DNA of 64,000 nt from Anaeromyxobacter sp. Fw109-5 (GTDB taxonomy: Bacteria; Myxococcota; Myxococcia; Myxococcales; Anaeromyxobacteraceae): NCBI RefSeq assembly GCF_000017505.1, contig NC_009675.1, forward strand, positions 3,481,001 to 3,545,000, written 5' to 3'. A program made the translations under genes and the position numbers. This document shows positions 21,998 to 27,543 of this stretch, piece by piece. The notes beneath the pieces are model-generated. The model was not told the DNA's origin and made no database searches. It worked only from the letters and a program-made list of their open reading frames with translations. The first letter of the stretch is position 1. Every line of letters starts with the position of its first letter.

Positions 21998-24808
21998 CTA
22001 TGCGGCGGGCTCCTCCTCGACGAGCCGCAGCCCCGCCGGCAGGCTCTCGCCGAAGATGCGCTGCTCCTCCTCCGCGCTCGCCTCGGCCACCTCCCGCACG
22101 GCGCGCACCGTCTCCGCGGGGGCGCCGCCCTCCGCGAGCGCGGAGATCACCCGCGCGCGGACGTCGTCCGCCACGTCTCGCACGCGGTCGCCGCTGCGGC
22201 GGGCGAGCTGGGCGAGCGGGAAGACCAGCTCTCGCCGCGAGACCGGCAGCGCGAGGAGCCGCGCGATCCAGTCCTCCGCGGTCGCGGCGGGCACCGCGAG
22301 GTGCGCGCTCGCGTGGAACGGCACGCGGGCGCCCAGCCGGCCGAGGGACCACAGGAGGTGCGGGGCGGGCCCCTCGTCCGCGAGCCGCGCGAGGAGCCAC
22401 GCTCCCGCCTCGACCTTGCGGGCCGGCTCGACGCGCTCGAGCGCGCCCGCGAGGCGGACCATCTCGTCGACCGCCTCCGGCTTCACGCCGGGCACCCTGG
22501 GCGGCGGCTTGCGCGGATCGCGCGGGCGGAGGAACGGCGCGAGGGACTCGAAGAGCCTCCCCTGCGCGGCGGGATCGAGGCCGCCGGCGATGCGGCGCCA
22601 CATCACCCACCACGCCGCCCAGGCGCGCGGGTCGGCCTGGTACTGGAGCCCCTCGCCGAAGACCGCCCAGGTCTCGGCCGCGCGCCACGCGTCGAGCGGG
22701 GCGCCGAACCCGGGGCGCAGGCAGTAGCCGGTGAGCTGGAGCCAGACCCGCTCGTGGTCGGCGCTCCGCCGCCTCCGCGCGCGCCCGGCGTGCAGCGCCG
22801 CCCACAGCTCGCGCACGAGCGGGGTGGACCAGCCCTCGCGCGGCCCCAGCAGCTTCTCCAGGGCGCGGAGCAGCCCCTTCACCTCCTTCCGCTCGACCGG
22901 CGCCTTCCTTCCGTAGAAGAGCTCGACCTGCGCCCGCGCCTCCTCGAGCTTCCGGGGCGCCTGGCCCACCTCCCCGCGTCCCTCCCGCGCGCCGTCGGCG
23001 CGCCGCTCCCCATCGGCCTGCCGGCCCCGCAGCGAGAACTCGAGCTTCCAGCGCGCCTCGCGGTCGGTGGCCGCGCACCAGAGCTCGAGCGTTCCGATCT
23101 CGGTGAGGGCCGCCTCGAGCCGCACCGGCACCTCGCCCGCCGGCGCGCCCTCGGCGCGGAGCACCGCCTCGACCGGTGGGAGCGGCACGAGGTCGTCGCT
23201 CACCTCCACCACGTCCCCGGGCCGCTCGACGCGCGCCCGCGCCGAGGCGAACAGCGGGAAGCGCACCGGCCGCCCGAGGGCGAGCGCGAACGGGCGCGGG
23301 ACGGAGACGCGCGTCCCCTCCTCGAGGTGGCGCGGCACGACGCAGAGCGCGCGCGCTCCCTCGGGCGCGGCGATCCCCACGTAGAACGCGCGCGGGCTGC
23401 CGCCGCCGATCCGGAACCCGATGCCGCGCCGGACGAGGGCCGCGTACGCAGCGCCGCGCGCCACGGCGAGGTCCAGCGCGGGGCTCGCCAGCACCGGCAC
23501 GGGCGGCGCCTGCGGGAACCACGACGAGACGATCCCGGCGAGCCGGTCCCGCACCTCGCGCGGCGTGAACACCCCGCCGTTCACGAGGATCGCGTCCGGC
23601 CGCGCGAGGCCGCCCCGCGCGCCCGCCTCGGAGGCGTGAGTGGCCAGGAACGCGGCGACGTGCCGGGGGATGGCGGGATCGGGCTCGTAGGGCAGGCCGA
23701 GCTCGGCGAGGCCCGCCGTGCGCGGGGCGCGCCGCGGCCGCTCGTCCGCCGCCGTCGCCGGCAGGAAGCCGTCGAGGAAGACCTGCCGCACCTCCTCGCG
23801 CGTCACCTCCGCCGAGAGCGCGCTCGCGACGAGCCGGCTCCCCCGCCCTACCACCGCCACCGGGAGCCGCGCCGGCCCGCCCTCCTCCATGAGCCGCTCC
23901 TTCGCGAGGCGGCAGGCGAGCACGAGCGACGCGAACCGGCTCGCGTCGAGCCGCTCACCGAGGCGGGCCTCGACCGCCCGGGCCAGGGCCAGATCGACGT
24001 TGTCGCCGCCGAGCAGGAGGTGGTCGCCCACCGCGAGCCGCGTGAAGGCCGGCCGTCCCTCGCGCAGCTCGACGCGCACGAGGGTGAGGTCGGTGGTGCC
24101 GCCGCCCACGTCCACGACGAGGACCATCCCGCCCCGCGCGATGGGCCGGACGTCCTCGGCGATCTCGCCCGCGCCCGCCGCGGCGAGCGCGGCCCGGTGC
24201 CGGCTCGCCCAGTCGTGGAACGCCGCCGAGGGCTCCTCGATGAGCGTCACCCGCCCGAGCCCCGCCTCGCGCGCGGCGGCGAGGGTGAGCTCGCGCGCGA
24301 CCTCGTCGAAGGAGGCCGGCACCGCGAGCACCAGCTCCTGCTCCGCGAGCGGCGCGCCGGGGTGGCGGTGGTCCCACGCCTCGCGCAGGTGCGCGAGGTA
24401 GGCCGCCGAGGCCTGCACCGGCGAGAGGCGCGGCACGCCGTCGGGCGCGCCCCACGGCAGGAGCGGCGCGGTCCGATCGGCGCGCGCGTTCGCGAGCCAG
24501 CTCTTCGCCGACGTCACGAGCCTGCCGGGGACGCGCGCCCCCTGCTCGCGCGCGAGCTCCCCGACCACCACGGGCCGGTCGCCCCAGGGGAGCCGCATGG
24601 CGTCCGCGGCGAGCTCCGGGCCGGGCAGGTACGCGCAGGACGGGAGCAGGCGGCGCTCGCGCACCTCGCCGGGCGCCACGAGCTGCGCGATGGGGAAGTG
24701 CTCGACCGCGGCGGCGAGATCGCCCTCGCGCGCGAGATCCACCGCGGCGAGCGCGGAGTTCACCGTGCCCAGATCGACGCCGACGAGGTAGCGCGCCTCC
24801 CCCGCCAT
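21998..24808 (-). CDS. Hsp70-like protein with C-terminal DUF3731-type region
   Basis: A 936-aa divergent Hsp70. The ATPase domain has phosphate-1 GVDLGTVNSALAAVDL (near 9), phosphate-2 LVVDVGGGTTDLTLV (near 229) and an adenosine-type motif ILVNGGVFTPREV (near 406). A beta-rich region follows, then a long helical C-terminal extension (about 560-936), unlike the DnaK lid and similar to the DUF3731 regions seen on such proteins. It starts three bases after the stop of the second Hsp70-like gene and belongs to a three-gene unit with a DUF2760 protein. No DnaJ or GrpE lies nearby, so partners are unknown. Confidence 0.85.
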   Translation of the reverse strand: MAGEARYLVGVDLGTVNSALAAVDLAREGDLAAAVEHFPIAQLVAPGEVRERRLLPSCAYLPGPELAADAMRLPWGDRPVVVGELAREQGARVPGRLVTSAKSWLANARADRTAPLLPWGAPDGVPRLSPVQASAAYLAHLREAWDHRHPGAPLAEQELVLAVPASFDEVARELTLAAAREAGLGRVTLIEEPSAAFHDWASRHRAALAAAGAGEIAEDVRPIARGGMVLVVDVGGGTTDLTLVRVELREGRPAFTRLAVGDHLLLGGDNVDLALARAVEARLGERLDASRFASLVLACRLAKERLMEEGGPARLPVAVVGRGSRLVASALSAEVTREEVRQVFLDGFLPATAADERPRRAPRTAGLAELGLPYEPDPAIPRHVAAFLATHASEAGARGGLARPDAILVNGGVFTPREVRDRLAGIVSSWFPQAPPVPVLASPALDLAVARGAAYAALVRRGIGFRIGGGSPRAFYVGIAAPEGARALCVVPRHLEEGTRVSVPRPFALALGRPVRFPLFASARARVERPGDVVEVSDDLVPLPPVEAVLRAEGAPAGEVPVRLEAALTEIGTLELWCAATDREARWKLEFSLRGRQADGERRADGAREGRGEVGQAPRKLEEARAQVELFYGRKAPVERKEVKGLLRALEKLLGPREGWSTPLVRELWAALHAGRARRRRSADHERVWLQLTGYCLRPGFGAPLDAWRAAETWAVFGEGLQYQADPRAWAAWWVMWRRIAGGLDPAAQGRLFESLAPFLRPRDPRKPPPRVPGVKPEAVDEMVRLAGALERVEPARKVEAGAWLLARLADEGPAPHLLWSLGRLGARVPFHASAHLAVPAATAEDWIARLLALPVSRRELVFPLAQLARRSGDRVRDVADDVRARVISALAEGGAPAETVRAVREVAEASAEEEQRIFGESLPAGLRLVEEEPAA

Positions 24809-24811
24809 GGC

Positions 24812-26674: not shown

Positions 26675-27543
26675 AGCTCGACCTCGGCGGGGGCGACCAG
26701 CGTCTGGTCCCCGCCGTCCTTCGCGGGCGGCAGGCGCACCTCGCGCGCGCGCCAGCCGTGGTGGCGGAGCGCCCCCTGGAACGGCGGCTTGCCCACGACG
26801 TTGCCGGTGAGGCGGATGGCGGTCGGATCGAAGCCGGTGGCGACGGTGACGCGCGCGCCCTCCGGCTCGCGGAGCACCGGCTCCAGGCGGAAGTACTCCT
26901 CGATGGCACGCTTGCACCCTGCGTGAACGGTGCGTGCGGCGGCGCCGATGGCCGAGTCAGGGAACCCGGCGAGGTCCTCCTCGATGAAGTCCACGAGCCG
27001 GCCCTCCCGCTGGAGCACTGCGAGGAGCTGGAGCGCGGCGCGAGGATCGGGCTTCACGGGCTCGACCGGCTTCGGCGCCTCCACCGGCTTGACGACCTCC
27101 GCCGGCTTCGCGACCTCCGCAGGCCTCGCGGCCTCCGCAGGCTTCGCGAGCTCCGCAGGCTTCGCGAGCTCCGCAGGCTTCGCGGCCTCCGCAGGCTTCG
27201 CGAGCTCGGCGGGCCTGGTCGCGGCCGGCCCCTTCACCTGCGCCGGTCCACCCGTCGCGGGTTCGTGCACGGTCGCCGCCGGAGGCTGCGGGCCGGCGGG
27301 GGCCGCGGCCGGCTTCGCGGAGGGTGCGGGGGCCGGAGCGGGCGCGGCGGGAGGCTCGGCCATCCGCGCGGAGGGACCGGGCGCCGGAGCGGGCTCCGGC
27401 AGCAGGGCGCCTGCGCGGCGCGCCTCGCGCACGCGATAGACGGCGGCCGCGACGTCGGCTCGGAAGAGGATCGCGAAGAAGGCGTAGAAGGCGAGGACGA
27501 GGCGCTGGATGGGCGAGATGTCGGGACCCTGCACGATATTCAC
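26671..27543 (-). CDS. DUF2760 domain protein with KPAE repeats
   Basis: A 290-aa protein. An N-terminal hydrophobic segment (LVLAFYAFFAILFRADVAAA, about 15-35) is followed by a Pro/Ala-rich stretch, an array of KPAE-type repeats (about 110-160) and the C-terminal DUF2760 domain (about 170-290; LLAVLQREGRLVDFIEEDL, FDPTAIRLTGNV). DUF2760 genes regularly precede paired Hsp70-like genes; function is unknown, but a membrane anchor or client adaptor for the Hsp70s fits. The GTG start at 27543 has a weak Shine-Dalgarno and was chosen because hydrophobic and family homology begins there. The stop overlaps the next gene as GTGA. Confidence 0.82.
   Translation of the reverse strand: MNIVQGPDISPIQRLVLAFYAFFAILFRADVAAAVYRVREARRAGALLPEPAPAPGPSARMAEPPAAPAPAPAPSAKPAAAPAGPQPPAATVHEPATGGPAQVKGPAATRPAELAKPAEAAKPAELAKPAELAKPAEAARPAEVAKPAEVVKPVEAPKPVEPVKPDPRAALQLLAVLQREGRLVDFIEEDLAGFPDSAIGAAARTVHAGCKRAIEEYFRLEPVLREPEGARVTVATGFDPTAIRLTGNVVGKPPFQGALRHHGWRAREVRLPPAKDGGDQTLVAPAEVEL
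27070..27215 (-). repeat. Tandem coding repeat (KPAE units)
   Basis: Imperfect units of 12-15 bp encode repeated K-P-A-E-[LAV]-[AV] within the DUF2760 gene. The near-identical DNA (gcaggcttcgcgagctcc type blocks) makes length change by slippage or recombination likely, always in steps that keep the frame. Confidence 0.8.

Follow-up and report, generated by a model that had tools for sequence, protein, structure and literature searches.

A co-inherited gene unit of DUF2760 and two divergent Hsp70s in Anaeromyxobacter sp. Fw109-5 as a candidate membrane-associated chaperone module

Introduction

What task is served by two different Hsp70s that are encoded in one tight cluster with a protein of the family DUF2760? 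This question is raised by a locus on the minus strand of a 64,000-nucleotide stretch of contig NC_009675.1 of Anaeromyxobacter sp. Fw109-5 (positions 3,481,001 to 3,545,000), the whole of which is referred to here as the window. The DUF2760 gene comes first (26671..27534) and is followed by the genes for Hsp70A, of 620 residues (24812..26674), and Hsp70B, of 936 residues (21998..24808). The arrangement given in a first-pass annotation of the window was confirmed: the stop of DUF2760 and the start of Hsp70A share a GTGA overlap (26671..26674, minus strand), a gap of three bases (24809..24811, minus strand) separates the TAG stop of Hsp70A from the ATG of Hsp70B, and the two Hsp70s are different. 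Bacterial Hsp70 function is usually framed as that of DnaK, HscA and HscC in the excerpted text of PMC8215388. The locus would add to these a further ATPase-competent Hsp70 pair, conserved as a unit with a partner that is not a J-protein.

Co-occurrence and synteny

Co-occurrence of the genes was evaluated across genomes using DUF2760 and DUF3731, the Pfam family carried by Hsp70B. Among 115 Myxococcota genomes with a completeness of 95% or more, 84 carried DUF2760 and 85 carried DUF3731. The two families were present together in 83 genomes, sharing one contig in 77 of these, and were both absent from 29, which left one genome with DUF2760 only and two with DUF3731 only. The latter two look like assembly gaps because Hsp70B adjoins a contig end in each, the contig ending less than 200 bases from Hsp70B in G083 and Hsp70B starting at the contig end in G089. 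In the DUF2760-only genome (G039, locus L078) the protein lacked an internal segment and ended in APARVDLP, and a search of that genome returned no relative of Hsp70A or Hsp70B; this DUF2760 appears to be a decayed relic left after loss of both Hsp70s. In a set of 41 genomes, consisting of the genome of origin and 40 relatives, DUF2760 was found in 25 and DUF3731 in 24, all DUF3731 genomes carrying DUF2760, and in a second class, around Comamonas testosteroni, DUF2760 occurred in 4 of 140 genomes and DUF3731 in the same 4.

A contig scan with the DUF2760 domain alone returned at least 499 relatives, and synteny was evaluated on the best 80 of these, a sample biased to close matches. An Hsp70 lay directly downstream on the same strand in 77 of the 80 loci; of the other three, two (L129 and L155) have less than 100 bases downstream and one (L136) had no Hsp70 within 9 kb. 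Downstream sequence of at least 6 kb was available for 64 loci, comprising 55 with the full trio, 7 with Hsp70A only, 1 with a single Hsp70 carrying DUF3731 (L160) and 1 with none. DUF3731 was found elsewhere in all six genomes with an Hsp70A-only locus that were searched (the seventh locus, L132, lay outside the search), and the genome of L136 carries both Hsp70A and Hsp70B elsewhere; the genes are therefore kept together even when they are not neighbours. In 45 of 72 loci no more than 40 bases separate the DUF2760 stop from the start of the Hsp70A ATP motif, and in 31 of 42 the ATP motif of Hsp70B begins no more than 60 bases from the Hsp70A stop. Fusions of DUF2760 to Hsp70A were absent among the loci tested, and no fourth conserved neighbour was found in 108 loci beyond groups of near relatives, for example Duganella and Massilia.

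Judged by record titles, the trio is conserved in Myxococcota, beta-, gamma- and alphaproteobacteria, Desulfobacterales, Verrucomicrobia, Lentisphaerae, Acidobacteria and Planctomycetes. The statement that the gene set recurs in bacteria was thereby borne out, DUF2760 loci being found in many phyla and mostly with an Hsp70 adjoining. The first-pass annotation had named, as evidence against the unit, genomes in which the genes occur independently of each other; this check, carried out here, gave the opposite result, the genes co-occurring almost perfectly even when unlinked. Co-occurrence of this kind, linked or unlinked, strongly supports one functional unit, and that the three genes form one can be regarded as well supported. 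One candidate from a viral scan (L161) was weak at 32% identity, gave no match when the locus was re-checked and was dropped.

Sequence and structure of the two Hsp70s

Pfam matches to the HSP70 family were weak for both proteins, with E values of 1.2e-14 for Hsp70A and 8.1e-11 for Hsp70B. In order to relate the two, a tree was built from 168 distinct cores (99 A and 69 B), obtained from 202 places of which 172 were full. The cores fell into two clades, separated without error and with a support of 1.0. Positions were numbered by profile alignment to DnaK, and the equivalents of DnaK D8, K70, E171, D194, T199 and D201 were intact in all 99 Hsp70A and all 69 Hsp70B cores, suggesting that both proteins are ATPase-competent. 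The interdomain linker of DnaK is VLLLD; this motif was not conserved, the consensus of the corresponding region being RRGHGVRIRGG in Hsp70A and RRGLGLRIGGG in Hsp70B. DnaK R167 contacts the HPD motif of the J-domain, according to the excerpted texts of PMC8215388 and PMC7289447. At this position an arginine was found in 5 of 99 Hsp70A and 25 of 69 Hsp70B cores, so that most A have lost it and B are mixed, and the position of DnaK N170 is a glutamate in all A and B cores. The main J-domain contact is thus usually lost in the set.

The helical lid of canonical Hsp70s, the alpha part of the substrate-binding domain (SBD-alpha), is absent from Hsp70A and replaced in Hsp70B by a solenoid-like domain. 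Hsp70A consists of an ATPase domain and a predicted SBD-beta-like domain (residues ~466-605, 24860..25279, minus strand), the latter assigned from the alignment of A and B cores together with the model of its paralog Hsp70B, and ends soon after it; in 101 short forms the typical distance between the ATP motif and the end is ~605 residues. In Hsp70B the ATPase domain is followed by an SBD-beta-like beta-sandwich (residues ~474-589, 23042..23389, minus strand) and by a helical C-terminal domain (residues ~621-919, 22052..22948, minus strand) that overlaps a match to DUF3731 (PF12531, residues 682-929, E 2.4e-92, 309.7 bits against a curated cut-off of 25). An extension of 370 residues unlike a lid had been described in the first-pass annotation; its non-lid character stands, while its length comes to ~345 residues after the beta domain (from ~residue 590) and it belongs to a named family.

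An AlphaFold2 model of Hsp70B residues 442-936, computed from 50 sequences with a mean predicted local distance difference test score (pLDDT) of 85.4, showed a beta-sandwich, a low-confidence linker and a high-confidence all-helical domain. Its best Foldseek matches were the substrate-binding domains of DnaK and BiP, the top one being the DnaK C-terminus 4r5j_B (E 9.1e-4). Comparison of the helical part to armadillo and HEAT proteins gave a best Z of 14.7 at a root-mean-square deviation (rmsd) of 5.1 over 257 aligned residues, a Z just above the background of helical models; the domain is called no more than solenoid-like because unrelated helical models reach nearly such values. Irregular forms of Hsp70B were also observed. 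In a Verrucomicrobiales metagenome-assembled genome (L112, 12337-14763) the gene is apparently split by an insert of ~2.4 kb, and in the genome G035 (L064, L049/L050) the DUF3731 match falls into two pieces in different frames, pointing to a frameshift or a sequencing error.

The DUF2760 protein

The DUF2760 domain (PF10816) was matched at residues 167-289 (26677..27045, minus strand) with an E value of 1.6e-51 and 173.8 bits against a curated cut-off of 25, and the structure model of the protein was confident for a domain and of low confidence at the N-terminus. No J-domain was found in the protein: Pfam returned PF10816 only, and the conserved columns do not contain HPD. No match at E 0.001 or better was obtained in a Foldseek search with the full-length model, which includes a long low-confidence linker and may therefore conceal a fold match. 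The C-terminal end carries an APAEVEL motif (26674..26694, minus strand), and of 110 orthologs, 80 have exact PAEVEL no more than 2 residues from the stop, most others being conservative. The first-pass annotation had also reported no DnaJ or GrpE partner at the locus, which holds for the ten flanking open reading frames (ORFs) scanned with Pfam, a subset of those in the window, in which neither a J-domain nor a GrpE family was found. Two further likenesses of DUF2760 were rejected. A similarity to GrpEL1 was a single VIA-align row (Z 2.8, rmsd 4.3, 53 residues) and was taken as chance, and a profile match to transcription activator-like (TAL) effector repeats amounted to 28 residues summed over repeats, no stretch of which passes alone.

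Upstream of the domain a Pro/Ala/Lys-rich linker of low model confidence (residues ~45-160, 27064..27411, minus strand) is preceded by a hydrophobic amphipathic helix (residues ~10-28, 27460..27516, minus strand; modelled as helix at 11-26) with a mean hydrophobicity of up to 0.63 and a moment of up to 0.48. The protein had been described as membrane-anchored. In the window the helix is short and amphipathic, with no clear transmembrane helix. Several orthologs do carry transmembrane-like segments; strongly hydrophobic N-terminal stretches were found in DUF2760 of Vibrio (L166) and Bradyrhizobium (L054) and at several loci such as L091, L131, L145, L148 and L158. Taken together, the helix here and the stretches in orthologs make a membrane localisation of DUF2760 likely, with the N-terminal helix as the likely element of association, and lend moderate support to the proposed site at the membrane. 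The start of the gene was probably placed nine bases too far upstream, at the GTG at 27543, in the first-pass annotation. Both sister genomes have GTG-CAG at the position of 27534 and lack the GTG upstream of it, so the GTG at 27534 is probably the true start; in the window the upstream GTG forms part of AAGGTG, a sequence resembling a ribosome site.

Published data on likely orthologs

No paper on DUF2760, DUF3731 or their Pfam accessions was found in the open-licence literature, and the view that the task of the unit is not established holds for the literature searched, though leads on orthologs exist. Deletion of MXAN_5323, an Hsp70 of 925 residues in Myxococcus xanthus, decreased sporulation and peroxide survival and increased the growth lag after peroxide, with no clear effect on motility, on predation or under heat, cold and osmotic stress (PMC8265645). 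The same study found that an Escherichia coli dnaK mutant was not rescued in growth by MXAN_5323 and that mutants of three other noncanonical Hsp70s behaved like the MXAN_5323 mutant. In G066, a complete genome of 9.0 Mb from the same order as M. xanthus, the first ATG of Hsp70B gives a product of exactly 925 residues, and Hsp70A and Hsp70B alone match Hsp70A at an E value of 1e-20 or better. MXAN_5323 is likely to be the ortholog of Hsp70B.

A second lead comes from Vibrio cholerae, in which HapR activates the promoter of VC1375, both in vivo and in vitro (PMC10328515, excerpted text). The 22-base HapR site printed there was found in 1 of 247 family genomes, ~330 bases upstream of DUF2760, which is followed by Hsp70A and Hsp70B; VC1375 is tied to DUF2760 because this site lies upstream of the three genes. 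VC1373-1375 were treated as one unit in a biofilm screen, as excerpted (PMC9201469). MXAN_5323 and VC1373-VC1375 very likely belong to the same module as the trio of the window. In the portions of these reports that were available they appear as single genes or promoter targets and the three-gene module is not described; two separate single-gene observations (MXAN_5323 and VC1375) would become parts of one testable system. A Photobacterium 'putative DnaK-related protein', perhaps a member of this family, was found carbonylated in a redox study of ultraviolet B (PMC3706606, excerpt).

Discussion

The reading we prefer, tentatively and at slightly less than even confidence, is that of a self-contained, co-inherited, membrane-associated two-Hsp70 chaperone module for cells that are dense, starving, sporulating or under oxidative stress. 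That the unit acts as a chaperone at the membrane when cells are dense, resting or stressed is likely in itself. DUF2760 would associate with the inner membrane via its N-terminal helix, its C-terminal domain being kept in the cytoplasm on the flexible linker; there this domain may take the part of a J-domain protein by recruiting, and perhaps regulating, Hsp70A. Both Hsp70s would bind extended client segments by the SBD-beta-like domain without the usual lid, a fold modelled for Hsp70B and assigned by homology to Hsp70A, and the solenoid of Hsp70B may provide a platform for partners or clients that couples the two. Published data on the likely orthologs suggest that the module would maintain proteins at or near the membrane and not serve in heat shock. 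The first-pass annotation had suggested one complex, perhaps a dedicated chaperone at the membrane; of this the functional unit stands and the membrane site is moderately supported.

Independence from J-proteins is possible. A more specific proposal, which we consider doubtful, is an Hsp70 machine that runs without J-protein, GrpE or lid, in which the AEVEL end of DUF2760 triggers Hsp70A at the membrane and Hsp70B acts as a second client holder and as the exchange factor for Hsp70A. If true, the Hsp70 cycle can run on different co-chaperones; our literature search found no GrpE-independent, Hsp110-like bacterial system. Eukaryotic Hsp70-Hsp110 is a pair of different Hsp70-superfamily proteins, one of them enlarged, and by analogy the locus encodes two different Hsp70s with one enlarged; unlike in that pair, the enlarged member here has a helical solenoid-like domain and both members keep all tested catalytic residues. 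The exchange factors HspBP1 and Fes1, as excerpted accounts describe them, likewise link an armadillo-type solenoid to Hsp70, whereas the solenoid-like domain of the window is fused to an Hsp70; the likeness is an analogy only because HspBP1 was absent among the 50 matches listed for the helical domain. In E. coli, HscC with the membrane-anchored J-proteins DjlB and DjlC is a specialised Hsp70 with dedicated partners that is thought to act at the membrane, HscC being of low abundance and unable to replace DnaK (PMC8215388, in part). The unit resembles this system and differs from it in that its partner, DUF2760, has no J-domain match, and in having two Hsp70s, no lid, and a solenoid-like domain on one of them.

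Several points weigh against the two-Hsp70 module as we read it. Physical contact among DUF2760, Hsp70A and Hsp70B is something we infer, and DUF2760 of the window has an amphipathic helix and not a clear transmembrane one. At L160 (4298-7592) DUF2760 is followed by a single DUF3731-type Hsp70 and no separate Hsp70A was found in that genome; the Hsp70 pair is therefore not always required. J-protein use by Hsp70B is possible because 25 of 69 Hsp70B cores keep the R167 arginine. The genomes are interrelated and co-occurrence counts are not independent events. The tie between MXAN_5323 and Hsp70B rests on length, rarity and order and not on direct sequence comparison, and the MXAN_5323 phenotypes are not specific because they are mild and shared by three other noncanonical Hsp70 mutants. 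VC1374 is listed among the genes repressed in biofilm in the part of PMC9201469 available.

Other explanations of the locus were weighed against the same data. Two ordinary auxiliary Hsp70s might use general DnaJ and GrpE, with DUF2760 as a passive tether or client. Other Hsp70 systems exist in these genomes, and the intact ATPase residues in all 168 cores, like the arginine kept in part of the B cores, would agree with such proteins. The explanation is nevertheless rather unlikely given that Hsp70A has nearly lost this arginine (5 of 99), that glutamate is invariant at the N170 position and that the linker is unlike VLLLD; a passive tether would also not be expected to be invariant at so many positions and to keep its C-terminus fixed, and MXAN_5323 failed to replace DnaK in E. 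coli (PMC8265645).

A factor dedicated to assembling or regulating a single envelope complex or signalling pathway, comparable to StkA/SglK in Myxococcus motility and polysaccharide and distinct from a general chaperone, would explain the accessory, sporadic distribution (4 of 140 genomes in one class), the HapR control in Vibrio (PMC10328515, excerpt) and the membrane element of DUF2760. We judge it unlikely, since the neighbourhoods of the 108 loci share no client gene beyond close relatives and motility and predation of the MXAN_5323 mutant were normal (PMC8265645). A mobile accessory or defence-linked cassette is suggested by the trio on two Bradyrhizobium plasmids typed as conjugative and by a Thiodictyon plasmid on which DUF2760 and Hsp70A lie next to genes with an anti-phage annotation (L053, plasmid record only). 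The same 11 plasmid records match the Hsp70B and DUF2760 queries, the Hsp70B-query match of Thiodictyon being its A gene. The Hsp70 cores also match PDC-M61B in PADLOC, which points the same way; the match is weak, spans only ~90 residues of the ATPase domain and has no counterpart for DUF2760. Presence in 84 of 115 Myxococcota genomes also counts against such a cassette, which is very improbable.

Neighbouring genes in the window

Next to the unit on its downstream side, an ORF of 756 residues (19691-21961, likewise minus strand) matched a GT20 trehalose-phosphate synthase and a trehalose phosphatase and is read as a fused trehalose enzyme. Divergent from the DUF2760 gene lies a short lipoprotein-like ORF (27785-28036, plus strand) that begins MTKLFGAALMIAALGIAGC; the ORF containing it gave no Pfam match. 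Further away, an ORF of 507 residues (33139-34662, plus strand) combines an ATP-binding cassette (ABC) ATPase domain and a LysR-type substrate-binding domain, an unusual pairing.

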